From Candidatus Woesearchaeota archaeon (GTDB lineage Archaea; Nanobdellota; Nanobdellia; Woesearchaeales; ARS49), in assembly GCA_002687275.1 (NCBI GenBank), contig NYZT01000027.1:1-38741 (forward strand): a DNA stretch of 38,741 bases, read 5' to 3'. Position 1 is the first letter of the stretch. Each line of letters starts with the position of its first letter. The notes below the pieces were generated by a model, which was given only the letters and a program-made list of their open reading frames with translations, made no database searches and was not told where the DNA came from. Of this stretch, positions 10,862 to 35,476 are shown piece by piece. The position numbers were made by a program, and so were the translations under genes.

Positions 10862-11276
10862 CGTGCTTATTGTTGGCCTGGTGGCCCTATGCGCCCTAGC
10901 CCTTGTCATGGCTGACACCATAACCGGTGATATCACGTTGCCAACTGTCAAAGTGACAGAAACCGTGTGCCACGAAGAGGACGGCGAGGAAATTTGTGTT
11001 GAGGAACAACGCATCGAGGGCATGAATCTTCCTTGGTTGGATCAGCCGGCAGTGTGGTGGGGTAGCATAATCCTTGGCCTCGTAGTATTTGCTGCCGCAA
11101 TGTATGCCTTGGTGCACTTGCGAAGAAAACTTGTGGATATCCGTCGACGAAGAAAGCAACTGCGGGAATACGTCCGGCAGGCGAGACGAGAAAACACCGC
11201 GGAAGACCGCATTGAGTACTATCTCAAAAGCATGCACTACACGGACAGAGACATCAAGCACGCTTTGAAGCGCTAA
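10848..11276 (+). CDS. Small single-pass membrane protein with signal peptide and cytoplasmic helical domain
   Basis: 142 aa. Starts at GTG 10848, preceded by a strong Shine-Dalgarno (AAAGGAG) and overlapping the giant gene by 14 nt, so it is translationally coupled to it. A signal peptide (VLIVGLVALCALALVMA) is followed by a short acidic exterior of about 45 residues with one Cys pair, a TM helix at ~67-87 (GSIILGLVVFAAAMYAL), and a basic cytoplasmic tail. The last 40 residues (EYVRQARRENTAEDRIEYYL) resemble the cytoplasmic end of the upstream giant protein: paired short helices around an 'I--YL---Y----I--A' pattern. I infer a small partner of the giant protein, perhaps sharing a cytoplasmic docking partner. 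No named family was recognised. Its 3' end overlaps the convergent gene by 23 nt. Confidence 0.8.
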   Translation: MKNPSVLIVGLVALCALALVMADTITGDITLPTVKVTETVCHEEDGEEICVEEQRIEGMNLPWLDQPAVWWGSIILGLVVFAAAMYALVHLRRKLVDIRRRRKQLREYVRQARRENTAEDRIEYYLKSMHYTDRDIKHALKR

Positions 11277-11526
11277 TTTCGTCCGGTCTCATCAGACAAT
11301 GCATTATCTGGGAGCGGCACTTCCACTCTTTCAAGAATGCCTTAACCTTCTTTTCATGCTCGGGTCTTACCAAGAGCACGGTCTTGGCAAGCTGCACGAT
11401 GCCGCACTCTTCAACAATGCCTGGCTTGTTTCCCCTACCCTTGAGCGCGTAGAAGAACCTGACCTTGTCTTTGTACACCAAGTGCTTGGTGTCATACGTG
11501 ACAATGTTCATGGGCACCAAGTTCAT
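11254..11526 (-). CDS. Small uncharacterised protein, paralog of the 83-aa protein at 22742
   Basis: 90 aa, last gene of the minus-strand giant operon. Its ATG overlaps the giant gene's TGA in an ATGA junction, which implies translational coupling. It is soluble, without signal peptide or TM segment. It shares about 55% identity over ~62 residues with the protein that opens the operon; conserved blocks are DKVRF-YA-KGR and AFLK-WKC. The alternating hydrophobic pattern suggests a small alpha/beta fold. No family recognised. Its position directly behind the giant gene, with the paralog directly in front, suggests a role tied to production or regulation of the giant protein, which is inference only. 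The C-terminal ~20 residues after the shared core are unique. Confidence 0.8.
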   Translation of the reverse strand: MNLVPMNIVTYDTKHLVYKDKVRFFYALKGRGNKPGIVEECGIVQLAKTVLLVRPEHEKKVKAFLKEWKCRSQIMHCLMRPDEISASKRA

Positions 11527-14500
11527 TTCTTGCCACCCCCAAACTTTTTCTTCAGGTCACGCAAGCGCTTTGCGTGGGTGTAGGTATGCTCTTCTTTCGT
11601 AGGGGGCTCTTTGGGCTTGTGCTTGACAACTGGTTTTGGTTTTACCTGACGTTGATAGCTCGTGCCAAGGCTTTCTCGTAAGCGGTCTAGGCTGACGTTA
11701 GTGTGGCGCTCCCGTTTCTTTACTGGTCGTGGTTTTGGCGTGGGGCGAGGCTCGGGTCGTACGTAGGATGTCTTGGTTCTGTAGCTAGTGTCAAAGCTCT
11801 TCTTTAATGATTCTAGCATGTGGCCCTTGTGCTCGTGCGGCTTTCGCTCAATCCTTTGTGGGGGTCTTACAACTTCGGGCTCTGGCTTCGTGTACTGTAA
11901 TCTGTCCTCTACTCTGCTGGCAAACTTTTGTTTGAGCTTGTCAAAGCCATACCTTGGCTTGTGCGCCGGCATGCGCGGCTTTTTCTGTACTGGCGCCACG
12001 TGCGGCTTGGCCTTTGGTGTCTGTTGCAAGTATCGCTCGTATCTTGTGCCAAACTGCTTCTTGAGCTGATGGAGTGGCTTTGGAACTTGCGCGACCTGGC
12101 CTTCTTTGGTCCACGCGCGGTGATGTCGCTTGCCCAACATCTCTTGCAATCGTTCCCCGCTCGTCCTTGGTTTGGGTTGTGGTGTTGGCTGAGGCTTGAT
12201 GCTGAATGGCTTGTACTTTACCTTTGGCAGGTCCCACTTGGGTGGTGGTAGGCTTTCTCTTCTTGGGAGTCGGATAGGCTTGAGCTTGGGAAGGCTGACC
12301 TTCAAGAATGCGTCGTGCAGTCTCTTCAATGTGGGCATCATGACTGGTTGCCTTCGTGGCTTCCAGCGTCGCAAGGGGTGAGGCATACGTGGCAAGTGTG
12401 GCATGTGGGCGTGACGGAAGAATTCGACAAGGACAGAGACAACAATCAGAGCAAGGAGAACGTAGGCAGGGACGAGAGCTTCGTACAAGTAGTGGTGGAG
12501 TCCAAGGGTGGCGCCAAGAAGCAGTGCGATGCCTACTTTGCTTAGCCTGAACAACCTTGGCAGGTCCTTGCCGTACTTGTGTCTCTTGAACTCGCCGTAG
12601 AGGATGAGTGCGATCATGGCTAGGAGGAAACCATAGATGATCATAGGTAGTAAGTTCTTGGCGTCCTTGTCGACGATCAAACAATCGCTTGGGCAGTTAA
12701 CTGAATCCTCTCCTTGTCCACATACACCGTTGCCACACTTACAGTTGAGTGGGTCTGCGACGGTTGCTTCGTCGATTTCCTGGCCAACAACGGCGTAGGT
12801 GTAGCCTGGCTGACAGTTGTTGATGTTCAACCGTACGTACTGGTTGAAGCCTAGCGTAACCTTGCCTTCTACTCTCTTCGCCACCAACCTTGCGATGACC
12901 TTTCGGGGTACTGCGTGATCGATGATCTGTCCGTGGTCGAGCTCCATCTCAAAGTAGTCCTCACACTTGTTGTTGACGTACTCGCCGCCAACGTGCTGGG
13001 CGCTCTTTACGCCTACCACGCCATCGTTGGGCTCGTCGAAGAATTGTGCGATCTGGTCTGATTCCACAGTGAACAGGGCTGTTTCGATAGAGAAGGGTCT
13101 GTTGCCCGCTAGCACCACGTACTCTTTGTCTTCCATTCGTGGGAGCTGGATTCCTTGACTCAAGGATTGTACCGCGGTGGGGCTTGCCGCGAGGAAGGGT
13201 ACGATGTTTTTCTTTGCGCCTATTCTTTTTTGTACTTTTTTGTAGATGTCGATGGCTGGGCTGCCGTCGTTTGGTGTTCCTGCAAGGATGAGCTTTCTGA
13301 GTTTTTCTTCGAATTCTTTGCGGGTCATGTCTTTGAGTACTTGTTGGGTGATAAGTCCGCCCATGCTGTGGGCGACGATGTCTACGGTGTCGAATTCTTG
13401 TAGGGTGCCTTCGATGAGGAGTCTTGTCTGTCGTGAGATTTCTTTGAAGTCGAGTGTGCTTGGGTAGGCGATGCTGTAGACTTGTTGTGGTTGTTTGGTG
13501 AGTCTGAATTCTTCTATCAGGGGTAGCCAGGTAGCTGGGCTACTCATGAAGCCGTGGATGAGTATGAGTGCCTGTCTGCTGCCACCATCATGTTCCTTAC
13601 TCATCGTAACATCGTCACAGCTATCACACCTGATGCCGTAGAAGCCGAGTACGCTGGTGGTGTTGGTCTCAAATGTTCCACTAACCGCGCTGCCGTCGTA
13701 GTTAGTGACTATGGATTGCATGTCGCCGTTTTGTCTTCTGAAGGCGGGGAATTCTCCTTCGAGTACGTTGCTGGTTCGCGGACTTTGGACGCTTATGGTG
13801 ACGGTTTGTGGTTTTCCGCTGTCTTGGGTGATTTCGATGGGGTCTACGAGTAGTGCGATGTGTTTGTCTACTTGTGGTAGGCTGAGGGCATGTGGTTTCA
13901 TGTTGAACCTGAAGGGTTTGGTGACGTCTTCGAATTCAATGGTGTAGCTTTCTACTTGGACTCTTGGTTTTTCGGGCGTGATGATAGCTTCTTTGGTGAG
14001 CACGCGTTTTCTGTCGATTTCTAGCCCTTCTTTGGAGTACTCGCTTAGCACAAGTTCGGAGTAGCTCACACCACCACACTCAAACTCTGTGGGCTTTTCC
14101 ACGCCAACAAATTCGCAACCGTCACGATTGCACTTTAGCGTGGTGATGTTTTCGTAGTTTTCTGAGACGCTCAGCGTGAGTACGACGTTGTCTCCTTTGC
14201 AGTCCATGGCGAAGGGGTCTGCGAGTATGCTGTATCCTGTGGGTACTGGTGGTGCGCCGGCTTTTTTGATCTTTACTTGGCTTCCTGCTTCTCCTTGTGC
14301 GCATGCAACTTCTTCTGCTTCGATGTCTTCTTGGCTGATGAATAGTCTGCCGATGTTGCTTCGTCTTTGGGAGGTTGCTGCGCTTACTCCTGTTGCTTTT
14401 GCTGCTGGTGCTGCAGGCGCGGGAGCTGGTGCGGGAGCTGGTGCGGGCGCCTCTGTTGCTTCTTCAGCTTTTGCTGTTTTCTTGGGTGCGCTGCTGGATC

Positions 14501-17500
14501 TGGGAACGACAATCTTGCCTGTGCCGGGGTTGGCATCTTCACCATAACTAGAGAAGCCTGTGACGTTGTACACGTGAACTCTGTTAGCAAAGCTTACCTC
14601 TGTGCACACGTTGCTTGGGCAGGTCTCAAACACGCCATCATCTTCTGGATCTCTAGTAGCGCGAGGGTTCTCAAACAGGGTGTTGAAGAAGGTGATCTGT
14701 GCTGCCACGTCAAGGTTTGATTCAAGGCTGGTGTTTGCAAGCGCGTAGTCCTCAGCAAGCACCAGGAAGCCTGAGAGATTGTTAACATTACCTGCCACGC
14801 CTCCAAACTCTATGCCGCTGGTGTTCAACTGGCCGAGTTTGAACGTGCTGTCCGTGATGATGACGGAGTGGTTGTCGTGGTATCTATTTTGGTAGACAAA
14901 CTTTACCCCTGCTGCAGTACCGTTGAACGTGGCATTTCTCACGTAGAAGAACTCTGCCTGTATCTCTGTGGAACCGTTGGTGCCAGCAAAGGTTGCACCA
15001 TCCATGATGTAGGTGCTGTTGAGCGTGACGATGGCTCCAGTACCTCTCACAACGGTGCCGGGTAGCATGGTGGCGTTGCTGATGTTGAAGTTGTTTTGGT
15101 CTACCGCGCTCCATTCCCATCCTTGGACGGCGTACAGGTGGTCGTGGTCGATGTCATACAGGCCAACCGTGCCGGTTACCCCTCCGTTGGAGCCGTTAGC
15201 GAGAAGGTGGCTGTTGTTCACCAGGCTTGTGTTGTACTTGATCATGATGCGGCCTCCGCCGCCGCCTTCTCCGGTTCCTCCGCGACCACGTGCGAGGAGG
15301 TAGCCCTGGCCGTCGATAACGTCTGTAACAATGTTGATGCTGCCCCCACTACCGCCGCCGCCTTCCTGGTCACCAAAGCCGTCTACCGACAGGTTTCCGG
15401 AGATGTTGATGAGTCCTGCTTCGATGAACACGAGTCCGCCACCTTGCGAGCCGTTAACCGTAGGAGCTGCACCTGCGCCTCCGCCCCCACTTCCTAACTC
15501 CACAGGATTGAAGGCGCTGCCATACCTTGATCCGTACGATTCTTGGACGATTTCGGGGTTGGCTGTGGATATCCATGTGGGCGCTCCAACACCTCCGTGG
15601 CTGCCGCCGCTGCCGTTGCTTTCTGATGAACCGATGGGTCCTGCGCCAGGACCGGTCTCTGCCCCAAATCCTTTTGTGGTGATGATGCTCTGGACGTCCA
15701 GGGTCATGTTGGTGGTGCTGATGTTGAGCCGGGTGACGTTGGCGATCTGTGCCATGTCTAGGAGTATGTGCTCGGCAGTGATGCTTAGGTTGGAGAGGTT
15801 TTGGCTGGGGTTGGGGATGATGCTTGCGTTGTACAAGATAAGATTGGTGACGTTTAGCGTAAGACTGTGGTTGCTGGTTGTTGCAGCCTGGGTGATGTTG
15901 ATGGTGGCATAATTCCATATGCTGAGGTCGGTGAGCACCCATCTCCATCCGCCTCTGATTTGGACGCTGCTGGCGTTCAACTCAAAGAAGGCTATGGTGC
16001 CCACTCCACCTCCAGACTTGCCAGACACGTCCGTGTTCTCGATGGATATGGTGCTGAAGTTGGTTCTTACCGTGATCATGCCTCCTGAGCTGTTGTCTGC
16101 ACCTCTTGCCTCAAAGTTTCCGTTGCCGGTGAGATTGTTGACGATGACGTTGATGGTGCCTCCGCTGCCTCCGGCGCCGATGTCTGTCCCTTGGTAATCT
16201 TCGCCAGTGGCGGTGATGTTACCGCTGATGTTAACTTGGTTGCCGCGGATGAACACCACGCCTCCTCCTGCTCCGCCTCCTTGGGATAATCTTGCTCCGC
16301 CTCCGCTTCCTGGTTGGATGGGGTTGAATGGGCTGTCATATGGATTGCCTCCTGGAGAGTTGTCCCCGGCGTCTTCGATAAAGTCTGAGCCTTTGCCGCC
16401 GTGGCCTGCTCCTGAGCCTCCGTTAGCTCCTCCAAGTCCTGCTCCTGGTCCTTGCTCTGCCCTGAACCCTGCCTTGTCTGCGGAAATGAACGAGTTTGCG
16501 GTGAGGGTGAAGTTGGGACTGGTGATGTTCATCGCGCTTGTTTTGTTGATGGTGGAGTCCATGATGAGGCTGGTGCCTGCGCTGAGTGTGAAGTTACCGA
16601 TGAAGCTCTCGTTGGTGTTGCCCTCGATGGTGCTGTTGATGAGGTGGAAGACGCTGGCTGAGATGTTGAGCGTGTCATTTGCTTTGGTGAGAGCGTTGCT
16701 TACGTTCAATAGGGTGTAGTTCCAGCTGGCTTGTTTGACCCATCGCCATCCTTGTCGGATGTTCAAGCTGTTATCGTCCAGGTCAAACATGGCGGCCGTT
16801 CCTGGCTCTGCGCCACCGTCTCCATCCACTGCTATGTTTGTTATGGGTATCTTGGTGAAGTTGTACTGTACAAGGATCATGCCGCCGCTGCTAGCGTTAG
16901 CTCCTTTTGCGGTGAGGAATCCTCCGCCGGTGAGGTTACCTACTAAAATATTAATGGAACCGCCTGCCCCTCCAGTGTTCTGTGAACCTGGAGGAGGGAG
17001 CACGCCATCAACCGTGATGTTTCCAGACAGGTTTGAAAAGGAAGAACGAATGAACACCACACCTCCTCCACGCCCGCCTAGGGCGCCGCCAGGTTCGCTG
17101 GCGCCTCCACTTCCTGCCTCTTCAGGATTGAGGGGGTTGTCGTATGGTTCGAGAGGGAAGTTCTCTCCTTGCATTCCTCTTCCGCCATGGCCTGCTCCGC
17201 TTCCTGCCTCTGTCGCTCCGGTCATGCCGAAGGCGGGTCCAGAGTCAGAGGCAAAGCCTGTGCCGTCCGAAAGAATGACGGAACCTACCGTGAGGGTGAA
17301 GTTAGGGCTGGTGATGTTGAATCTGCTCGTTCTGTTGATGGTGGAGTCCATGATGAGGCTGGTGCCTGCGCTGAGCGTGAAGTTGCCGATGAGACTCTCA
17401 TTGGTGTTGCCCTCGATGATGCTATCTATGAGGTGGAAAACACTTGCGGAGATGTTGAGCGTGTCATTTGCTTTGGTGAGAGCGTTGCTTACGTTCAATA

Positions 17501-20500
17501 GGGTGTAGTTCCAGCTGGATTGTTTTACCCATCGCCATCCTTGTCTGATGTTGAGGCTGTTGTCATTCTCGTCATACATGGCTGAGGTGCCTCTTTCTCC
17601 GCCGGAGCTGCCACTGGCGTTGAGTTTTTCTATGGAGATGGTGGTGGTGTTGTAGCCAATGAAGATCATGCCGCCTCCGCTTCTGGCCCCAGTGCCTGTC
17701 GCGTCGAGCGTACCGTTGCCTACGAGTTCGTTGACGAGGATGTTGATGCTGCCTCCGCTTCCTCCTCCTGCTGAGCCGCTTCCATCAATTCCGTTGGCGC
17801 TGATGTTGCCAGAGAGGTTGGCAAAGTTGGATCGTATGATGATCACGCCTCCTCCTCTTCCCCCCGCGCCTCCTCCGCCACTGTTTCCTCCTCCGCTTCC
17901 GTGCTCAACAGGGTTTGTTGGGTCGTCATACACTTGGCCAGAAGGTAGTGGGGGTTCTGTTGTTGCTGGCCCGCCTAGACCTCCGTGGCCTGCTCCTGGG
18001 GCATCCCCGCTAGCGGAATCCGTGCCTGCGCCTGGACCAAGACCTGCGTCAAATCCTGTGCCGTCCGAAAGAATGACTGAGCTTATAGTGAAGGTGAAGT
18101 TAGGGCTGGTGATGTTTAGCCTGCTTGTTCTGTTGATGACGGCCTCTACCAAGAAGGAGGTTCCTGCTCCGATGGTGAGATTGCCGATGAAGCTTTCGTT
18201 GTTCTTTGGTTGGATGCTCGAGTTTGTTATGTGGAAGACGCTGGCGGTGATGTTGAGCGTGTTGTTAGCTAGCGTGATTGCGTTTGTGACGTTCAACAGG
18301 GTGAAGTTCCAGGCAGACAGTTTTACCCATCGCCAGCTCTGTCTGATGTTGAGGCTGTTGCTGTCCATGTCAAACATGGCTGCGGTGCCGGGATTGCTGC
18401 CATTCGCTCCGTCAACAAACATGTTCTCTATGCTTGTGGTGGAGGTGTTGTAACGCAACATAATCATGCCTCCTCCGCCTCCTGAAAGTCCGCTGCCTCG
18501 TGACATATACTTTCCGTCTCCGTGTAGGGTGTTGACGAGTACGTTGATGCTGCCTCCACTTCCCCCTCCGCCTGGACCATCGCTCGCCCCGCCGTCTGTG
18601 GTGATGTTTCCTGACATGTTCAACCTGTCAGCTCTGATGAAGACTGCTCCGCCTCCTCTTTGTCCTCCTTTGCCTCCTCCACTTCCAAGCTCGACAGGAT
18701 TCAAGGGATCATCGTAAACTTCGCTGCGAGGCATGGGAGGAGTTTCGCCGAGTATCTCGCTGCCTGCTCCACCATGTCCTCCTGGGCCGCCAAAGGTTGA
18801 ACCGTCCATTCCTCCTCCGGGTCCTGCGGAGGCGTTGAAGCCAGAGGCTTCCAGGATGATGAAGGATTCGCTGTCAATGCTGACGTTGACCGATGTTACA
18901 TTGAATCGTGTGAAGTTTCCTATGGTCGAGCTCAGTATGGACATCTCCGTGGTGTTCACGGTGAGGTTCTTGTCTAGATCCAGACTTACGTTTCCAGCAA
19001 GAAGCAGCGTGCTGTTTTGCATGCGGAAGAACGCGCCAGAGATGTTGATGCTGACGTTGTAGGTGGCTGCCACGTTTGTTAAGTTCATGGAAAACGCGTA
19101 TACGGGTGTCTCGTCAAACGTCCAGGACTGTCGCATGTTGAACGCGCCAGTGACGAGATCCACAAATGCTAGCGAGCCCGGGAAGGCCTTTCCTCTGCTG
19201 CTCACAGAAGATCGAGTGGGGTCGAGCGTGCTGGTGTTCGCTCTGACAATGATACGCCCTCCGCCGCCTGAGGCGTTCTCATGATCTGCGGCTCCTTCTG
19301 CCTCGAGACGTCCGTTTCCTATGAGGGTGTCTACCAGGATGTTGATGGTGCCTCCGCTTCCGCCGCCGCCATCACTTGCGAGGCTGATGCCACCTGTTAC
19401 CGTGATGTTTCCGCTCATGTTGAGTGTGGATCCTCTGATGAACACTGCGCCTCCTCCTCTTCCTCCTTCTGTGGTGCCGTCGTCACCTGCTCCGCCCTGA
19501 CTTCCTGGGTTGACGGGGTTGCGTGCGCTGTCATAGCTAATACCTGCTAGTACGGGGGGGTCGCCAGGAGAGTCTAACCCTTTGCCTCCGTGTCCTGCGC
19601 CAGACCCATGGGGGTGGCCGGCTGTGTCGTCCTGTCCTACTCCTGGACCGCCATAGGCAGAGCTGTTTGCCTCAATGTTGGCCTGCTCGTCGATGGTGAT
19701 GTTGACGCTGGTGATGTTGACAACAAGAAAATCGGCGAGTATGCTGTTTTTCATTTCCATGTTGGTGGCGTTCATGGTTAGGTTGATCGTTTGATTTTCC
19801 AGCGAGCCCTCAATCGTGGCGTTGACCATGCTGAACACGTCCACGCTAATGTTGAGAGTGTCATTCATGGTCACGTTGACCCCTATGATGCGCAGGCTGC
19901 CTATGTCTTGTAGGCTTGCAGAGGGGAATCTGAAGTCTTCGATCAGGTAGACAACGTCGTCGTCCACGTCCAGCAGGAACAGTGTGCCGGGCTTTGCGTT
20001 GGGCCCGCCTCCTAAGACGTCATAGTTATCGTGGGTGAGGCTGGAGTGATTGTACTCGATACGCATTCTTCCGCCTCCGCCGCGGCCACCTCCACCTCCT
20101 CCCCTGGCGGTGATGTTTCCTGTACCATTCATGTGGTTTGTGATGATATGGACGGTGCCTCCTCCGCCTCCGCCGCCAATTCCGGAGCCACCGCTTTGGA
20201 TGCCTGAGGCGCCGTCTGCGCTTATGGTGCCGTTAACGATGAGCACGTCTGCCTCGAGCTTGAGAATGCCTCCTCCTGCTCCAGCCAAGCCGTCATCAGT
20301 ACTGCCTGCGTGGCCTCCTCCATCGCCTGGCTGGAAGGGATTCACAGGGTCACCGTAGGCAATACCTCCGGGGTTGATGGGGTCTCCTTTGCCTTCTCCA
20401 CTACCTCCGTGGCCTCCTCCAGGCCCGTCGGTAGAATCATCGTCTGAGTCTGAGAGTTGGTTGACGCCCTGATTGGCCTGGTAGCCCGTGCCGTTCAGCA

Positions 20501-22751
20501 GAATGTCTCCTTCTACGGTGATATTCTCTGCTTTGATGAGTATGCTTTCGTTGCCTATACTCGTGGCGTTAATGATCATGATGGCTCCTGCGCTAACGTT
20601 GATGTTGTCGCAGGTCTTGTTGCTCGTTACGTATTCTGTGCCGGTGATGACCCAGTTGGCGCTCGCGGCAGGACAGCTCGCAAATTTGGTGACATTAAAC
20701 TCGAGATAGATGCTGTGGTTTTTGTTGTTGGATGTGTCATTCGCCAGTATGGTGAGGTTGTACTCCCCTGGTGTGTCGGTCGCTAGCGTTACCAAGGTAT
20801 TGTTGAACTCTGTGCCTGACTTGTTGAACAATTGTACTAGCACGTTGCTACCGTTGGGGATGGTGATGTTGGCGTACACGGTGTCTGTGATGTTGTCATC
20901 CGTGACGTTGACCTCGATGGTGGTGGTGTTGCCCCGCTGGAACTGTCGAGGCGTGACGTTAAGTTTGGTTACTTCGGGGACCTCGACGTCCGACGTTAGC
21001 GTGATTTCGTACTGGATGGTCAGCACAGGATAGTTGGTGATGTTGGCGTCTTCTTGCATCACGATCTCTGCGGTGGAGTTGGATTCGTTATGCTCCAACG
21101 TTCGTATGCCAAAAGTGAACATGTCGCCTCCTGTCAGCACGCTTTCGATGTCATCTGAGGCGTTAAGGCTTAGTTGCTGAGTGGCCTTCCAGTAGCAGCC
21201 AGAAGAGGTAAGGCACGTATCTTTTGTCTCATGCCCAGCAACGTTGCACCCGTCCACGTGATCCTCACACGCGGATCCGGCCCATGTGCAACCGGCGTTG
21301 ACGCTACACGCTGGTTCGTCTCCTTGTTCGGCACAGTTATCTCTGAAGCCCCTGCAAAGGCTCCTGTCGTTGGTGAAGTTAGTGCTGCCGTGGAAGTAGA
21401 TGTCGATGCTGCCGTTGGTGCCGTTGTAGAGGTCGTTGTTGCCTTGGGCGTTGTCTGTGTAGTCTGCTGCGGGTTTGGAGATTCTAGCAACCGTGATGTT
21501 GTCCTCATCGGTTATTTCTACTGCTGTTAGCGTGAGGTTCACCAGTGTTATGTTGGCGTTGTCAGGAATGATGGTGGTGTTGAAGTCCAGGAAGAGGCGA
21601 TAGCTTGCGTGTTTTGTGTCGCCCCAGGTGCACGGTGTTTGGGAGGTACAGTCATCTTCGAGGGTTAGGTTGGTGCATGGCTCGACCGTGCCCTCACAGC
21701 TGTCTCCGTCCCAGGTGCAGCCTCGCTGGGTGTTGCAGCTACCTTCATCACCGATATCGCCGCAGGGAGTGGGAGTTCCTGAGCAGCCGGGCATGGTTTT
21801 GTTGCCAAGGGATGCGTTGGAGAAGGTGGTGTCTCGGGTGTATTGGGTTATGTTTTCACTGGTCTCGTTCCTAAGGGTGTACCCGTCCAGCGTGAGGTTG
21901 CCTCCGTCTAGCGAGACGACGGTGATGGAGACTGCTTGTATGAGGAGGTCTCCTTGTTGTTGAACAGGAGCAACAGAGAAGCCTACGGCCTCTCCTGCCG
22001 ATCTGAACAGGGTGAAGTGGTCAACGGTAAAACTAACGTCTCCGTTGTCGTACTGGATGTTGGTACAGCTAGGGTTGGTCTGGTCGTCACAGGCCGCCCA
22101 GGTTGTTCCGTCATCGCTGTACTCGATCTTGCTCCCTATTGCGCCGTTGATGGTGAGGATTGCTGTTTTGTTGAGATGGATGCACTTGGTCGTGTCCAGC
22201 CCGAGGAGATTATCCTCAACCGTGAGACACTCGTGGATGCCGGTGTAGTTCAGTTTGCCACCGAAATCAATCTTTCCAAGATCGCCGCTTATGCTGCCGT
22301 CTTCCTGGATTTGCATACCTTTCGGTATGAGCAAGAAATTGTAGTTGAGGATTGCAGCATCATCCTCTTCGTCCGCTGCGTCCTCTAGCGTGGTTGTGTC
22401 TTCGATAAGACTGGGAAGGTCTGTAAGGTCTGGGATGTCTTCGATGGTGGGTGCACCAAACTCGTAAAGTAGCGTCTGTTGAGAGATGTTGGAGCCCACG
22501 AGTAAGGATACCGTAAGCTCCACCTCTCTTACTGTTGCGTGGTTCTTGGTTAGCGTTAGTAATTCTCCATCAACTTCTGTTGTGACGTTTTCGTGCGTCT
22601 GGACGAGGAAGGTGTCTGCCGGGCCTAGGAGCTCGGTGAGGTTTAGCGTGGTTGTTGGCAGATCTAGACCGAAAAGTCCTGTGATCGTGCCTCCGGCTAT
22701 CCCGAGCCCGGCGATGACGATGAAAACGGCGAGGAGCTTTCTTACTTCCAT
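11523..22751 (-). CDS. Giant Gly/Asn-rich repeat surface protein with C-terminal lipase-like domain and cytoplasmic repeat tail
   Basis: 3,742 aa from the ATG at 22751, chosen over the tracked GTG at 22781 because GGAGG precedes it and a signal peptide (KLLAVFIVIAGLGIAGG) begins at once. Order: signal 1-24; beta-rich region; two Cys clusters with C-W-G motifs (~320-374, ~465-520); Ig-like domain (~594-685); seven Gly/Asn-rich ~265-aa repeats (~700-2550), each with a GHGG motif and about a dozen N-x-S/T sequons; Ala-Pro linker (~2770); alpha/beta hydrolase (~3050-3280) with LILIHGF, nucleophile motif AHSMGG, and candidate acid and base in NDGVVGV and LDHGQ; CGNGVCGQGE Cys motif (~3335-3353); about three TM helices (~3360-3460); a basic cytoplasmic tail of six ~43-aa repeats. 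The hydrolase would sit just outside the membrane. Substrate unknown; lipase, esterase and PGAP1-like amidohydrolase are all possible. Confidence 0.9.
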   Translation of the reverse strand: MEVRKLLAVFIVIAGLGIAGGTITGLFGLDLPTTTLNLTELLGPADTFLVQTHENVTTEVDGELLTLTKNHATVREVELTVSLLVGSNISQQTLLYEFGAPTIEDIPDLTDLPSLIEDTTTLEDAADEEDDAAILNYNFLLIPKGMQIQEDGSISGDLGKIDFGGKLNYTGIHECLTVEDNLLGLDTTKCIHLNKTAILTINGAIGSKIEYSDDGTTWAACDDQTNPSCTNIQYDNGDVSFTVDHFTLFRSAGEAVGFSVAPVQQQGDLLIQAVSITVVSLDGGNLTLDGYTLRNETSENITQYTRDTTFSNASLGNKTMPGCSGTPTPCGDIGDEGSCNTQRGCTWDGDSCEGTVEPCTNLTLEDDCTSQTPCTWGDTKHASYRLFLDFNTTIIPDNANITLVNLTLTAVEITDEDNITVARISKPAADYTDNAQGNNDLYNGTNGSIDIYFHGSTNFTNDRSLCRGFRDNCAEQGDEPACSVNAGCTWAGSACEDHVDGCNVAGHETKDTCLTSSGCYWKATQQLSLNASDDIESVLTGGDMFTFGIRTLEHNESNSTAEIVMQEDANITNYPVLTIQYEITLTSDVEVPEVTKLNVTPRQFQRGNTTTIEVNVTDDNITDTVYANITIPNGSNVLVQLFNKSGTEFNNTLVTLATDTPGEYNLTILANDTSNNKNHSIYLEFNVTKFASCPAASANWVITGTEYVTSNKTCDNINVSAGAIMIINATSIGNESILIKAENITVEGDILLNGTGYQANQGVNQLSDSDDDSTDGPGGGHGGSGEGKGDPINPGGIAYGDPVNPFQPGDGGGHAGSTDDGLAGAGGGILKLEADVLIVNGTISADGASGIQSGGSGIGGGGGGGTVHIITNHMNGTGNITARGGGGGGRGGGGRMRIEYNHSSLTHDNYDVLGGGPNAKPGTLFLLDVDDDVVYLIEDFRFPSASLQDIGSLRIIGVNVTMNDTLNISVDVFSMVNATIEGSLENQTINLTMNATNMEMKNSILADFLVVNITSVNITIDEQANIEANSSAYGGPGVGQDDTAGHPHGSGAGHGGKGLDSPGDPPVLAGISYDSARNPVNPGSQGGAGDDGTTEGGRGGGAVFIRGSTLNMSGNITVTGGISLASDGGGGSGGTINILVDTLIGNGRLEAEGAADHENASGGGGRIIVRANTSTLDPTRSSVSSRGKAFPGSLAFVDLVTGAFNMRQSWTFDETPVYAFSMNLTNVAATYNVSINISGAFFRMQNSTLLLAGNVSLDLDKNLTVNTTEMSILSSTIGNFTRFNVTSVNVSIDSESFIILEASGFNASAGPGGGMDGSTFGGPGGHGGAGSEILGETPPMPRSEVYDDPLNPVELGSGGGKGGQRGGGAVFIRADRLNMSGNITTDGGASDGPGGGGSGGSINVLVNTLHGDGKYMSRGSGLSGGGGGMIMLRYNTSTTSIENMFVDGANGSNPGTAAMFDMDSNSLNIRQSWRWVKLSAWNFTLLNVTNAITLANNTLNITASVFHITNSSIQPKNNESFIGNLTIGAGTSFLVEAVINRTSRLNITSPNFTFTISSVILSDGTGFDAGLGPGAGTDSASGDAPGAGHGGLGGPATTEPPLPSGQVYDDPTNPVEHGSGGGNSGGGGAGGRGGGVIIIRSNFANLSGNISANGIDGSGSAGGGSGGSINILVNELVGNGTLDATGTGARSGGGMIFIGYNTTTISIEKLNASGSSGGERGTSAMYDENDNSLNIRQGWRWVKQSSWNYTLLNVSNALTKANDTLNISASVFHLIDSIIEGNTNESLIGNFTLSAGTSLIMDSTINRTSRFNITSPNFTLTVGSVILSDGTGFASDSGPAFGMTGATEAGSGAGHGGRGMQGENFPLEPYDNPLNPEEAGSGGASEPGGALGGRGGGVVFIRSSFSNLSGNITVDGVLPPPGSQNTGGAGGSINILVGNLTGGGFLTAKGANASSGGMILVQYNFTKIPITNIAVDGDGGAEPGTAAMFDLDDNSLNIRQGWRWVKQASWNYTLLNVSNALTKANDTLNISASVFHLINSTIEGNTNESFIGNFTLSAGTSLIMDSTINKTSAMNITSPNFTLTANSFISADKAGFRAEQGPGAGLGGANGGSGAGHGGKGSDFIEDAGDNSPGGNPYDSPFNPIQPGSGGGARLSQGGGAGGGVVFIRGNQVNISGNITATGEDYQGTDIGAGGSGGTINVIVNNLTGNGNFEARGADNSSGGMITVRTNFSTISIENTDVSGKSGGGVGTIAFFELNASSVQIRGGWRWVLTDLSIWNYATINITQAATTSNHSLTLNVTNLILYNASIIPNPSQNLSNLSITAEHILLDMAQIANVTRLNISTTNMTLDVQSIITTKGFGAETGPGAGPIGSSESNGSGGSHGGVGAPTWISTANPEIVQESYGSRYGSAFNPVELGSGGGGAGAAPTVNGSQGGGLVFIEAGLINISGNLSVDGFGDQEGGGGSGGSINIVTDVIDGQGYLLARGRGGTGEGGGGGRIMIKYNTSLVNNSHLLANGSNGGVTGTVGLYDIDHDHLYAVQGWEWSAVDQNNFNISNATMLPGTVVRGTGAIVTLNSTYIMDGATFAGTNGSTEIQAEFFYVRNATFNGTAAGVKFVYQNRYHDNHSVIITDSTFKLGQLNTSGIEFGGVAGNVNNLSGFLVLAEDYALANTSLESNLDVAAQITFFNTLFENPRATRDPEDDGVFETCPSNVCTEVSFANRVHVYNVTGFSSYGEDANPGTGKIVVPRSSSAPKKTAKAEEATEAPAPAPAPAPAPAAPAAKATGVSAATSQRRSNIGRLFISQEDIEAEEVACAQGEAGSQVKIKKAGAPPVPTGYSILADPFAMDCKGDNVVLTLSVSENYENITTLKCNRDGCEFVGVEKPTEFECGGVSYSELVLSEYSKEGLEIDRKRVLTKEAIITPEKPRVQVESYTIEFEDVTKPFRFNMKPHALSLPQVDKHIALLVDPIEITQDSGKPQTVTISVQSPRTSNVLEGEFPAFRRQNGDMQSIVTNYDGSAVSGTFETNTTSVLGFYGIRCDSCDDVTMSKEHDGGSRQALILIHGFMSSPATWLPLIEEFRLTKQPQQVYSIAYPSTLDFKEISRQTRLLIEGTLQEFDTVDIVAHSMGGLITQQVLKDMTRKEFEEKLRKLILAGTPNDGSPAIDIYKKVQKRIGAKKNIVPFLAASPTAVQSLSQGIQLPRMEDKEYVVLAGNRPFSIETALFTVESDQIAQFFDEPNDGVVGVKSAQHVGGEYVNNKCEDYFEMELDHGQIIDHAVPRKVIARLVAKRVEGKVTLGFNQYVRLNINNCQPGYTYAVVGQEIDEATVADPLNCKCGNGVCGQGEDSVNCPSDCLIVDKDAKNLLPMIIYGFLLAMIALILYGEFKRHKYGKDLPRLFRLSKVGIALLLGATLGLHHYLYEALVPAYVLLALIVVSVLVEFFRHAHMPHLPRMPHPLRRWKPRRQPVMMPTLKRLHDAFLKVSLPKLKPIRLPRRESLPPPKWDLPKVKYKPFSIKPQPTPQPKPRTSGERLQEMLGKRHHRAWTKEGQVAQVPKPLHQLKKQFGTRYERYLQQTPKAKPHVAPVQKKPRMPAHKPRYGFDKLKQKFASRVEDRLQYTKPEPEVVRPPQRIERKPHEHKGHMLESLKKSFDTSYRTKTSYVRPEPRPTPKPRPVKKRERHTNVSLDRLRESLGTSYQRQVKPKPVVKHKPKEPPTKEEHTYTHAKRLRDLKKKFGGGKK
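11530..12165 (-). repeat. Six ~43-aa basic repeats encoding the cytoplasmic tail
   Basis: After the last TM helix the protein carries six copies of a motif L--LK--FG(T)-Y/R-R, for example LHQLKKQFGTRYERYL, FDKLKQKFASRVEDRL and LDRLRESLGTSYQRQ, centred near 12150, 12063, 11935, 11806, 11681 and 11552. Short amphipathic helices are separated by Lys/Pro/Arg-rich linkers. The strong positive charge agrees with a cytoplasmic location. Confidence 0.75.
15100..20650 (-). repeat. Seven tandem ~790-820-bp repeats in the giant gene
   Basis: GHGG-type motifs recur near 20410, 19590, 18775, 17985, 17190, 16402 and 15592, giving a period of 788-820 bp (about 263-272 aa). Each unit has an Asn/Ser/Thr-rich beta region (NISASVFHL-type), a GHGG loop, a Y-D-P-NP-E-GSGGG segment, a GGGVVFIR strand block, NLSGNI, a GG-GGSINILV block and a closing RQGWRWV block. 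The regular beta pattern suggests a solenoid or stacked sandwich stalk. Units 5 and 6 are nearly identical in their shared core, while the outer units are more diverged. Confidence 0.85.
16660..16729 (-). repeat. 70-bp exact copy shared with 17449-17518
   Basis: These 70 bp are identical to 17449-17518, exactly 789 bp (263 codons) away in the neighbouring repeat unit. The preceding ~110 bp on the + strand (from about 16543 and 17332) is also close to identical. Identity at the nucleotide level, including synonymous sites, points to recent duplication or gene conversion between adjacent units. Confidence 0.85.
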
Positions 22752-22993
22752 ACAGCCCTCCGTGTGTAGCTGCACTTCCACTGCTTGAGAAATGCCTCTA
22801 CGGTGTTAGCGTGTTGTTTCTTAACCAAGAGTGCGGTTCTGCCTAGTTGTTCAATTTTTAGGTCTTGGATGATTCCAGATTTGCCATCTCTGCCCTTGAT
22901 GGCGTAGTAAAATCTGACCTTGTCAGAGTATTTTAGATGGGTGGTCGAATAGGTAAAAACGGCAAACTCGGTGTGACTACTACCAACAACCAC
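22742..22993 (-). CDS. Small uncharacterised protein opening the giant operon
   Basis: 83 aa, GTG start at 22993. It is soluble, with no signal peptide. It is homologous to the 90-aa protein at 11254-11526 (shared DKVRF-YA-KGR, QL--T-LLV and AFLK-WKC blocks), so two paralogs bracket the giant gene. The stop codon lies 10 nt inside the giant gene (TAA at 22742-22744, giant ATG at 22751), which couples their translation. The TATA box is about 31 nt upstream of the start codon and leaves a leader of only a few nucleotides. Function is unknown. A regulator, assembly factor or ribosome-associated factor for the giant protein are possibilities that the sequence alone cannot separate. Confidence 0.8.
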   Translation of the reverse strand: MVVGSSHTEFAVFTYSTTHLKYSDKVRFYYAIKGRDGKSGIIQDLKIEQLGRTALLVKKQHANTVEAFLKQWKCSYTRRAVWK

Positions 22994-23035
22994 GCTGTTA
23001 AATAATTTAACAGCAGTGGTATTTAAAGCTTTCGG
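22994..23035 (-). promoter_or_regulatory. Promoter (BRE/TATA) with 21-bp palindromic operator for the giant operon
   Basis: On the minus strand the sequence reads CGAAAGCTTTAAATACC, a good archaeal BRE plus TATA box (about 23020-23035). It is followed by GCTGTTAAATAATTTAACAGC (22994-23014), a perfect inverted repeat of 10-bp arms around one base that ends at the start codon. The palindrome covers the expected transcription start, the usual position for a repressor site. The binding protein is not known from the sequence. Confidence 0.75.
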
Positions 23036-23112
23036 CGCTTCTCGTCGAAAACTTCATCACCACTCGTTTGGGTCAAAAACCATCAGAAACCTGCTGGTAT
23101 AAATTATTACCG

Positions 23113-26672: not shown

Positions 26673-26701
26673 ATTAATATAGTCTGCAGTAATAACTGCA
26701 G
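26673..26701 (+). promoter_or_regulatory. TATA box plus palindromic operator of the TrmB-family gene
   Basis: ATTAATAT (26673-26680) is centred 27 nt before the ATG at 26703, so the mRNA is probably leaderless. Directly after it, CTGCAGTAATAACTGCAG (26684-26701) has perfect 7-bp arms around AATA and ends one base before the start codon. Occupation would block transcription initiation, which suggests autoregulation by the encoded regulator. Confidence 0.7.
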
Positions 26702-26702
26702 T

Positions 26703-27428
26703 ATGGATACGTCGCTGCTTGCGGAAGTGGGCCTCACGCCTCGAGAGATAGAGATCTATCTGGCCTTGTTGAGGCATGGTCCCTGTCTTGCAAACAAGCT
26801 CTCCAAGCACTCTTCAGTGTCAAGAACACACATCTACGAGGCACTGAACATGTTAAAAGAGAAGGGACTGGTGTCTTCGGTGGTGCAAGACTTCGCCCAC
26901 GTTTTTTCTGCTACTGCCCCTGACAATATTTCTGCGTATCTGGACAGGAAGAAAGCAGCGATCGAACAACAACAGCTACGAGCAAAGGTCTTAGAGACAG
27001 AACTCAAAAAGTTGCGGCAACCCATGATGTCAAAGCCAAAGATCGAGGTGTATGAAGGCAGGGAGGGCGTGAAGCACCTGTTTGTGGACGTGCTCAAGCA
27101 AAGAAAGGAACTCATGGTGATCAACGTAGCCGAACATACCAAAGACGTGTTAGGTCCGTATGCACAACGCTTTTTTGCTGAGAAGAAAAAACGAAAGATT
27201 CCCAGCAGAATTATCTTTTCCAAAAAGTTTCCTTTCCTTGACCCAACGGCAAAGAAGCGATTCATGCTTCGCAAGGATACTGGCCCGGCCATGACTGCCA
27301 TCTACGGTGACAAGGTGGTTTTGGTGTTGTGGCTCGAGCAGCCCGTTTCGGTCGTTATTGAAAGTAAAGAAGCTGCACGAGAGTACAAGGAATACTTTGA
27401 GGTGTTGTGGAAGGCAAGCAAGAGCTAG
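26703..27428 (+). CDS. TrmB-family transcriptional regulator
   Basis: 241 aa. The N-terminal winged helix-turn-helix (~1-75) matches the TrmB pattern: L-E-VGLTPREIEIYLALL, then SVSRTHIYEALNMLKEKGLV. A coiled-coil dimerisation helix follows at ~80-105 (RKKAAIEQQQLRAKVLETEL), then a small alpha/beta effector domain (~110-241) opening with KIEVYEGREGVKHLF. It lacks the longer C-terminal sugar-binding region of the founding TrmB, so the ligand is unknown. In other archaea such proteins control sugar uptake and central carbon metabolism; nearby pgk would fit, but that is inference. A palindrome overlaps its own promoter. Its stop codon overlaps that of the convergent lspA gene. Confidence 0.88.
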   Translation: MDTSLLAEVGLTPREIEIYLALLRHGPCLANKLSKHSSVSRTHIYEALNMLKEKGLVSSVVQDFAHVFSATAPDNISAYLDRKKAAIEQQQLRAKVLETELKKLRQPMMSKPKIEVYEGREGVKHLFVDVLKQRKELMVINVAEHTKDVLGPYAQRFFAEKKKRKIPSRIIFSKKFPFLDPTAKKRFMLRKDTGPAMTAIYGDKVVLVLWLEQPVSVVIESKEAAREYKEYFEVLWKASKS

Positions 27429-33337: not shown

Positions 33338-35476
33338 ATGTTTAAGGGGCAGGCGACACTGTTCGTCATACTTGGAGCACTATTGCTCATCACTATAGCT
33401 AGCGCCGCCTATTTTGTCAACCAACGTCAGGTCCAACTCTCAGAAGGACAGCTGCCAACACTACAAGAGGTGCCCGCAGTCGCCCAACCCGTGGTGGAGT
33501 ACTACCAAAGCTGCATCCGTCAGGTGGGAAGAGACGCGCTACGCCTCGTGGGCCTGCACGGAGGCTACACCTCGTCGCAAAGCCTACGTTCTAACCCTTA
33601 TGATCCCACAGGAGCAAACAACGACGGCGTGCACTTATTCCAGGACACAGACCTCGTGGCAGCATACTGGCACTACCTAAAAAGCCCGAACAACTGCGAA
33701 AAGCTCGGCGAGTGCGTGTATGATACAAAAAGACCTCCCCTGCGAGGCAGGGATTCCATCCAAAGCGATCTTGAGGACTACGTAAGCGCAAACCTGCCCT
33801 CGTGCCTACGTGACTTCCCCATGGAGGGGGTAACCGTCAAGCAAGACGATGACATTGACACCCGGGTCACGATAACCTCCCAGAACGTCCAGTTCCTCGT
33901 CAACCACGACCTCGTCATCCAGCGAGGAGGAGAATCATACCCCCGCGACCAGTTCCTCTACGTAGAAAACCTCAACATAGTTGAAATATATGATCTAGCC
34001 ACAGAGATAACCAACCTAGAACGACAGTTCAACTACCTCGAAAAGATGACCAAAGAGCTCATCTCCTCTTTTTCGGGAAGAAGCAGAAACAGGATGCCAC
34101 CCATAGCAGACTTTGAGGTTGCGCTAGCCGCGCCACGCTTCTGGACCAAGTTCGACTCAGAACGCATCTTCAGAGACGTCCTAGGAACCCACGCCAGCCT
34201 CTTCCAGGTGCTGAACACACGCGCCTACAGCCCCATCATCGCGCCTGCCGCAGTCGCAGACCCAGAACTCTTCGAACTCATCTACAACCGAATGTTCATC
34301 GTTCCCGTACAGACAGAATATCCAGACTTGACTGCAGACTTTGTCTATCTCGACTGGAAGCCATACTTTGACATCAACTGTCCGGGCCAGGTCTGCCGCC
34401 CAGAGGGCTTTGTGGCAAACTTCCTACCCCTTCCCTTTGGCTTCCACAGAACACGATTCTTCTACGACGTCAGCTACCCCGTCATGGTGGAGCTAAGCAA
34501 TCCAGACGCGTTCAACGGCCAAGGCTACAGCTTCAGATTCTTCCTCGAGGCAAACATGCGTAACAACAACCCGCTAACATCAGAGTACGTTGAGCTAGCA
34601 GACCCTGGCCTGCCCCAGCCATCCGAGTATTGCGATCCAACACGATGGCACACGCCAGCAAAATTCAAGGTAACCAATGGCTTTACTGGCAGAGCCGTGC
34701 CCGAGGCAGCCATAAGCTTCAACTGTGAGCCAGAAGAGTGCATGCTCGGCACTACAGACGACCAAGGAGTGTTTGAAGGGCTCGTACCTTCCTGTATAGG
34801 AGGGACCGCAACCGTGCTCCACAGAGACTATGCAAGCGTAAGCAAAGACGTAGACTCTGACCTGCCCTTTGAGGAAACCTTAGAATTCTACCCCTACGTC
34901 AACGTAGACTTCGAGGCAGAAAAATTACGCATACGAAAGACAGGAAACAACTTCTTCCTCGACGTTGTAAACCCTGCACCTCTGCGACCTTTCGAGCAGG
35001 CAGCAATACTATTAACCCGGAAGACCGAGGGCACAGAGCCAACCTTCACCGCCGTGGCAGAGATCCAAGGAGACCCCTTCAAGCCATCCCAAAACGAAAA
35101 CATAAGAATGGTGCCTGGCACGTACGAAGTACGCATCATGGCCTCGGCAAGTCCAGATCCTGCATGGGTGATCCCTCCACGCGAGAGATGCTTTGACGCA
35201 GGATTCTTCGACGAAGAATGCGTCATGCTGCCAGACGAAGAGATCAAGTTTGACAAGGACCAACCCTTCCCTACCGGAGACCACACCATGGAATGGGAGC
35301 TAACGCCAGAGAACCTCAAGGGCGCAAAAAGCATAACGTTCCGGTATGTCAGCTACGAACTCAGCCCCAACAACGACAACACGTTAGAGGACCTAGACAA
35401 GATCAACCTGCCAGCAGAGCTAACCGCAAGAGCAGAGACCCAAGAAAAACTACAACCGGTGATATTCTATGGCTAA
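33338..35476 (+). CDS. Large secreted protein with class III (KGQ) pilin-like N-terminus
   Basis: 712 aa from ATG 33338. The N-terminus MFKGQATLFVILGALLLI fits the archaeal class III signal, in which a prepilin peptidase of the EppA/FlaK type cuts between G and Q and leaves a hydrophobic helix (~5-26) that can assemble into a filament or stay in the membrane. The exterior is far larger than a normal pilin: a Cys-containing mixed domain (~40-200), helical and beta regions (~200-430), a carboxypeptidase-regulatory/Ig-like domain (~445-510, FTGRAVPEAAISF), and a second beta-sandwich (~515-690). First gene of an overlapping operon; its last 8 nt overlap the next gene. A surface-filament tip or anchor is possible, but this is inferred. 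Confidence 0.82.
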   Translation: MFKGQATLFVILGALLLITIASAAYFVNQRQVQLSEGQLPTLQEVPAVAQPVVEYYQSCIRQVGRDALRLVGLHGGYTSSQSLRSNPYDPTGANNDGVHLFQDTDLVAAYWHYLKSPNNCEKLGECVYDTKRPPLRGRDSIQSDLEDYVSANLPSCLRDFPMEGVTVKQDDDIDTRVTITSQNVQFLVNHDLVIQRGGESYPRDQFLYVENLNIVEIYDLATEITNLERQFNYLEKMTKELISSFSGRSRNRMPPIADFEVALAAPRFWTKFDSERIFRDVLGTHASLFQVLNTRAYSPIIAPAAVADPELFELIYNRMFIVPVQTEYPDLTADFVYLDWKPYFDINCPGQVCRPEGFVANFLPLPFGFHRTRFFYDVSYPVMVELSNPDAFNGQGYSFRFFLEANMRNNNPLTSEYVELADPGLPQPSEYCDPTRWHTPAKFKVTNGFTGRAVPEAAISFNCEPEECMLGTTDDQGVFEGLVPSCIGGTATVLHRDYASVSKDVDSDLPFEETLEFYPYVNVDFEAEKLRIRKTGNNFFLDVVNPAPLRPFEQAAILLTRKTEGTEPTFTAVAEIQGDPFKPSQNENIRMVPGTYEVRIMASASPDPAWVIPPRERCFDAGFFDEECVMLPDEEIKFDKDQPFPTGDHTMEWELTPENLKGAKSITFRYVSYELSPNNDNTLEDLDKINLPAELTARAETQEKLQPVIFYG

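Follow-up and report, generated by a model that had tools for sequence, protein, structure and literature searches.

What reads the palindrome at the promoter of a giant-protein operon in a Woesearchaeota genome, and what happens to transcription when it is read? The question arises from a window of 38,741 nucleotides (the whole stretch of DNA that was analysed). The original prediction described a perfect 21-bp palindrome between the TATA box and the start codon of this operon, where a bound protein would block initiation, and suggested that a TrmB-family regulator encoded nearby might be the protein that binds it. Here, we take the palindrome, its conservation, and its candidate readers in turn.

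The palindrome and its operon

The palindrome GCTGTTAAATAATTTAACAGC is perfect over its 21 bp (22994-23014), with two 10-bp arms flanking a single A, and it is placed as predicted; the interval first reported, 22994-23035, also covers the TATA box. The core that is shared family-wide, TGTTAA-N5-TTAACA, occupies 22996-23012 and defines what we call the type I operator. Reading along the minus strand, a BRE-like AAAGC stands directly upstream of the TATA box TTTAAATA (23027-23020), which is followed by 5 bases, the palindrome, and a GTG at 22993, the base directly after the palindrome. The first T of this TATA box is 15 bp before the operator core, an offset that is the same in nearly all relatives. 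From the TATA position and the typical archaeal TATA-to-start spacing, transcription on the minus strand is predicted to start at about 22997, inside the palindrome (22994-23000), and the giant-operon transcript would be leaderless or nearly so.

On the BRE side of the promoter is a second dyad, TTTCGGCG-cttct-CGTCGAAA (23030-23050), at approximately the position of the upstream type I operator of many relatives. The pattern TTTCGGCG-N5-CGTCGAAA is perfect in a same-genus relative (G001, contig C12, 74685-74705) and is the only such site in both genomes; it is possibly the operator of another regulator.

The GTG opens an 83-residue ORF on the minus strand (22742-22993), the first gene of the operon and our proposed autoregulator. 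The giant gene (11523-22751, minus strand) is second in the operon, not first. It overlaps the end of the 83-residue gene and encodes a secreted or membrane protein of about 3742 residues, counted from an ATG at 22751 (the mechanical ORF runs from a GTG at 22781), with a hydrophobic signal or anchor segment at its start. Towards its C-terminal part (11523-13781) we noted an alpha/beta hydrolase domain (PF12697) and then a tail with repeated LKxxFGxxY-like motifs. Paralogs of the 83-residue protein also follow the giant gene: one of 90 residues in the window (11254-11526, minus strand), which overlaps the end of the giant gene and for which no promoter or operator of its own was seen, and two in G001 (C12:62572-63143; L025 and L031), one of which terminates in the RLRELKKKFGGGKK-type tail also seen in the giant protein.

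The size of the palindrome is, by itself, weak evidence. It is the only inverted repeat in the window with arms of at least 10 and a gap of at most 5, and dinucleotide shuffling gives 0.27 such repeats per window, with at least one in 5 of 30 shuffles. Because comparable repeats arise in roughly one in six shuffled windows, the significance of the palindrome turns on its conservation. The 21-mer is absent from 100 shuffles when up to 3 mismatches are allowed. The genome-wide search that had been proposed to look for further promoter copies returned a single other match at this threshold, on contig C44, and it was rejected as a promoter site since it falls in coding sequence (QLLNYLTYLN). The same coding segment, in a winged-helix protein, holds a perfect type I operator in G000, G001, and G015 (L002:1503, L057:1820 and 2114, L062:1571), and G001 has a further copy at a promoter.

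Conservation and co-variation of the operator

Homologs of the 83-residue protein are found across Woesearchaeota and in some other Nanoarchaeia. The original prediction staked itself on conservation of the palindrome in close relatives, and the palindrome is kept in close and distant relatives alike. Within 300 bp upstream, TGTTAA-N5-TTAACA is matched at all 12 bases in 22 of 37 homologous loci and in none of 669 control windows drawn from the same loci as the 37 promoters; at 11 or more bases, the counts are 29 of 37 and 7 of 669. Operators also come in pairs exactly 40 bp apart around the TATA box (18 pairs), and the upstream copy, where present, often ends 8 bp before TATA. At four loci without a clear site (L124, L126, L132, and L140) the 83-residue-type gene lies directly behind another gene, as it apparently does at L138, and one locus (L139, in G044) has a type I promoter without any recognisable operator. 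It is this conservation of the core in the promoters of relatives that makes the palindrome significant, and the sequences support its designation as a conserved operator at the promoter of the giant-protein operon.

At one and the same place in the promoter, each divergent subfamily of the 83-residue domain has a palindrome of its own. Type I proteins (FYYALKGRDG) go with TGTTAA-N5-TTAACA (17 bp), type II (LFGYALKGR) with TGTTGAT-N-ATCAACA (15 bp), type III (RFVYALKGR) with TGTTAA-N4-TTAACA (16 bp), type IV (SHALxGTGG) with TGTCAA-N3-TTGACA (15 bp), type V (LRELQGY) with CTGTTAT-NN-ATAACAG, and type VI (LFNYALLGRRG) with GGTTTAT-N-ATAAACC. In a leave-one-out classification, where the operator models were trained on other loci and only on those with a domain <80% identical, the protein type was also the best operator type in 73 of 75 promoters, a figure to be read with the operator patterns having been taken from most of the promoters later classified, related genomes not being independent, and types III and IV having four promoters each. 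The two types agree in 5 further promoters. One genome (G052) has both types I and II, and another (G155) has type I and type III paralogs, each with its own operator, so the difference between operators cannot be put down to the genome as a whole. Paired operators of types I to IV all have an inner gap of 23 bp, despite operator lengths of 17, 15, 16, and 15 bp. As operator sequence co-varies with protein subfamily, we read this most simply as binding of DNA by the domain itself.

The order of genes is kept as well: relatives have the 83-residue gene followed by a large protein gene, and in most type I loci a gene for a large secreted or membrane protein overlaps or abuts the 83-residue-type gene. 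The same arrangement, with the large-protein gene as the next gene, is seen in those type II, IV, and V loci that were examined. Type VI genes (among the rows listed, L226, L229, and L231) precede a gene that resembles the CDC48 N-domain at its start, a name that comes from reading the sequence only. It was also observed that type V genes (L250, L253, and L254) precede apparent relatives of another gene in the window, at 33338-35476 (MFKGQATLFVILG...). The 83-residue family may control several kinds of cargo.

Presence of the site also follows presence of the gene. Sites were counted in 238 genomes of the order, of which 30 have a standalone 83-residue gene; these contain 59 exact sites versus 14 for a reversed-pattern control, and the 208 without it contain 99 versus 89, which is chance level (Fisher p=7e-7 for site presence versus standalone gene). 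Sites exceed chance only in genomes with the 83-residue gene, and therefore the element tracks that gene; no other gene was found to be consistently linked to the operator. Individual copies are found at other promoters, namely before the uL3 ribosomal-protein gene in G008, G011, G012, and G036 (as 40-bp pairs in G012 and G036), before a RIO1-kinase-like gene in G015, near a TruD-like gene in G035 (both names are from sequence reading with no family search), and before a conserved wHTH gene in G001. The G011 assembly lacks a standalone copy, but the place where one would be expected, behind the Rpr2 gene at the end of a contig, has two operators. As a separate observation, an element like CAGTACAG...GCAAAAGGC recurs in the long leader of the uL3 gene of many Woesearchaeota (L149, L151, L155, L157, L165, L168, and L174). 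It had no Rfam match in the 6 loci scanned and is a possible ribosomal-protein leader RNA.

Candidate readers of the operator

The AlphaFold2 model of the 83-residue protein, built with 35 homologs, is a ferredoxin-like beta-alpha-beta-alpha-beta fold (pLDDT 93), and that of a tandem homolog (L148) is beta-alpha-beta-beta-alpha-beta twice over (pLDDT 92). The protein has no match in Pfam, NCBIfam, PADLOC, or PDB sequences, the model has no HTH fold, no HTH family profile in Pfam or NCBIfam matches it, and the predicted fold is not that of a known DNA-binding family. Foldseek returns weak, generic matches such as Cas2 and ACT domains. The Cas2-type matches (E 0.05-0.3, TM approximately 0.5-0.57) reflect a weak likeness of ferredoxin-like folds with no sequence relation, and are not evidence of membership.

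Another parallel may be drawn with the papillomavirus E2 and EBNA1 domains, which are ferredoxin-like (beta-alpha-beta-beta-alpha-beta) and whose dimers read short palindromes through helix alpha-1. The L148 model has this topology (monomer models only were compared), whereas no sequence similarity was found, no strong match appeared in the PDB or BFVD lists for the monomer models, and an E2 fragment was only a weak BFVD match (E 0.36). The invariant residues of the 83-residue protein (K25, F28, Y29, Y30, K33, R35, and D36) are concentrated on helix alpha-1 and the loop after it, and the residue preceding YAL (Y29 here) varies by subfamily, being Y, G, V, S, L, or N in types I to VI. By analogy with papillomavirus E2, helix alpha-1 is likely to be the recognition helix. 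Other members of the domain family are fused to nucleotidyltransferase-like domains, in operons that lack the palindrome. The domain would thus have another role there, and its history is probably broader than regulation. Our literature search found no description of the operator or of the 83-residue family, which does not prove that none exists.

Autoregulated two-gene operons such as type II toxin-antitoxin modules offer another comparison, as their small first-gene product is taken to act on the operon through a promoter palindrome. The present operon shares both the small first-gene product and the palindrome over its own promoter, but its second gene encodes a giant secreted or membrane protein rather than a small toxin, and PADLOC has no match for the 83-residue protein. 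At one locus (L113:4222-5278), a winged-helix nucleotidyltransferase and a possible HEPN partner lie between the 83-residue gene and a secreted-protein gene, and resemble an inserted toxin-antitoxin module.

Which protein, then, reads the operator? The TrmB-family protein (26703-27428) is a neighbouring regulator, with a promoter palindrome of its own, CTGCAGTAATAACTGCAG (26684-26701), just before its gene. The original prediction pointed to the CTG...CAG ends that the two palindromes have in common; these outer bases are indeed common to both, but nothing else is shared, and CTGCAGTAATAACTGCAG may be the TrmB gene's own autoregulatory site. TrmB, TrmBL1, and Tgr of Thermococcales resemble the present case in having palindromic operators at the BRE/TATA or the transcription start; they repress by blocking polymerase recruitment, as is proposed here, and the TGM (TATCAC-N5-GTGATA) resembles type I in its 6-bp half-sites and 5-bp gap (PMC4158304). 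The sequences differ, however: the published TrmB-family motifs TACT-N3-AGTA, TATCAC-N5-GTGATA, and TACT-N7-8-GAGTA (PMC4158304) do not match TGTTAA-N5-TTAACA. TrmB proteins are built from a winged helix and a sugar-binding domain, unlike the 83-residue ferredoxin-like candidate, and here no TrmB tracks the operator. There are 18 TrmB-type matches in the genome, and G001, of the same genus, keeps the operator although its best match to the window TrmB is 31% identical and no ortholog; G003, G036, and G052 keep it with no TrmB homolog at E<=1e-10. With the ortholog absent from G001 and the motifs different, TrmB was rejected as the general reader, the idea that one TrmB regulator reads both palindromes does not hold up, and repression of the giant operon by TrmB through this palindrome is very improbable.

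The remaining alternatives differ in weight. That a separate transcription factor, for example of the winged-helix class, reads the operator, and that the 83-residue protein is co-regulated cargo or a cofactor, we regard as unlikely. Half-sites of 6 bp with centres about one helical turn apart would suit an HTH dimer, a winged-helix nucleotidyltransferase adjoins the 83-residue gene at L113 and L132, and the same operator stands before other genes, including those for uL3 and the wHTH protein mentioned above. The linkage of sites in excess of chance to the 83-residue gene, and to no other consistently, argues against such a factor, and with six subfamilies and six operator types several factors would have to track the paralogs. 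Nor does the wHTH candidate follow the operator, as 55 of 57 genomes have it whether or not the operator is there; the winged-helix/nuclease-like protein of L002 was rejected as regulator on the grounds that it is near-universal in the order irrespective of the operator, and the wHTH-nucleotidyltransferase neighbours on the grounds that they occur at few loci only and resemble inserted MNT-HEPN modules. An RNA hairpin, as leader or terminator, would have a perfect 10-bp stem if the repeat were transcribed whole, but the predicted start inside the repeat would leave the transcript without one arm, copies also occur upstream of TATA, and what is conserved is the sequence TGTTAA rather than pairing alone, so that we give this explanation very little credence. 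Chance is the least credible of all, as the observed conservation refutes it: repeats of this size do occur in shuffled windows, as noted, but it would have to account for the excess over control windows, the 40-bp pairing, and the fixed TATA offset.

We conclude from the sequence comparisons that the palindrome is rather likely to be the autogenous operator of a regulator-and-cargo operon, read by the 83-residue protein. This protein is most likely the autoregulator of its own operon, and probably a repressor. Two features of autogenous repressors are matched, a palindrome over the regulator's own promoter and an operator that co-varies with the regulator subfamily.

Proposed mechanism and its meaning

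In the mechanism that we propose, a dimer of the 83-residue protein would bind the TGTTAA half-sites, with helix alpha-1 and the KGRDGKSG loop that follows it as the most likely points of contact. Lying over the region of initiation, 15 bp downstream from the start of TATA, the dimer would block TFB or RNA polymerase and so repress both the 83-residue gene itself and the giant surface-protein gene behind it. Many relatives have a second operator, exactly 40 bp further upstream, where another dimer would sit on the opposite side of the BRE/TATA; in the genus of the window the second dyad described above occupies this place. Given the fixed TATA offset, the predicted start falls inside the downstream operator, which is the geometry of a steric repressor, and it is from operator position that we infer repression rather than activation. 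The placement, 15 bp from TATA and abutting the GTG, fits the original suggestion that a bound protein would block initiation.

The genomes of DPANN archaea are reduced, hardly any of their transcription factors have been characterised, and it may be their large surface proteins that govern how they make contact with other cells. We think it probable, to much the same degree as the reading of the palindrome itself, that the 83-residue domain founds an undescribed DPANN family of sequence-specific transcription regulators. Such a family would be ferredoxin-like rather than HTH, with at least six subfamilies each having its own palindrome of 15-17 bp, and would be wired in cis to large surface-protein operons (in one subfamily, to a CDC48-like gene), with a 23-bp inner gap around TATA in four types and a reach extending to the uL3 promoter in some genomes. 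Tests of the proposed regulator need no cultivation, only small recombinant proteins and short DNA duplexes, and the series of subfamilies and operators is a data set for the recognition code of a non-HTH DNA-binding fold. If the proposal is true, the operator can be read from the genome in many genera, and would give a handle on when DPANN cells deploy their large surface proteins.
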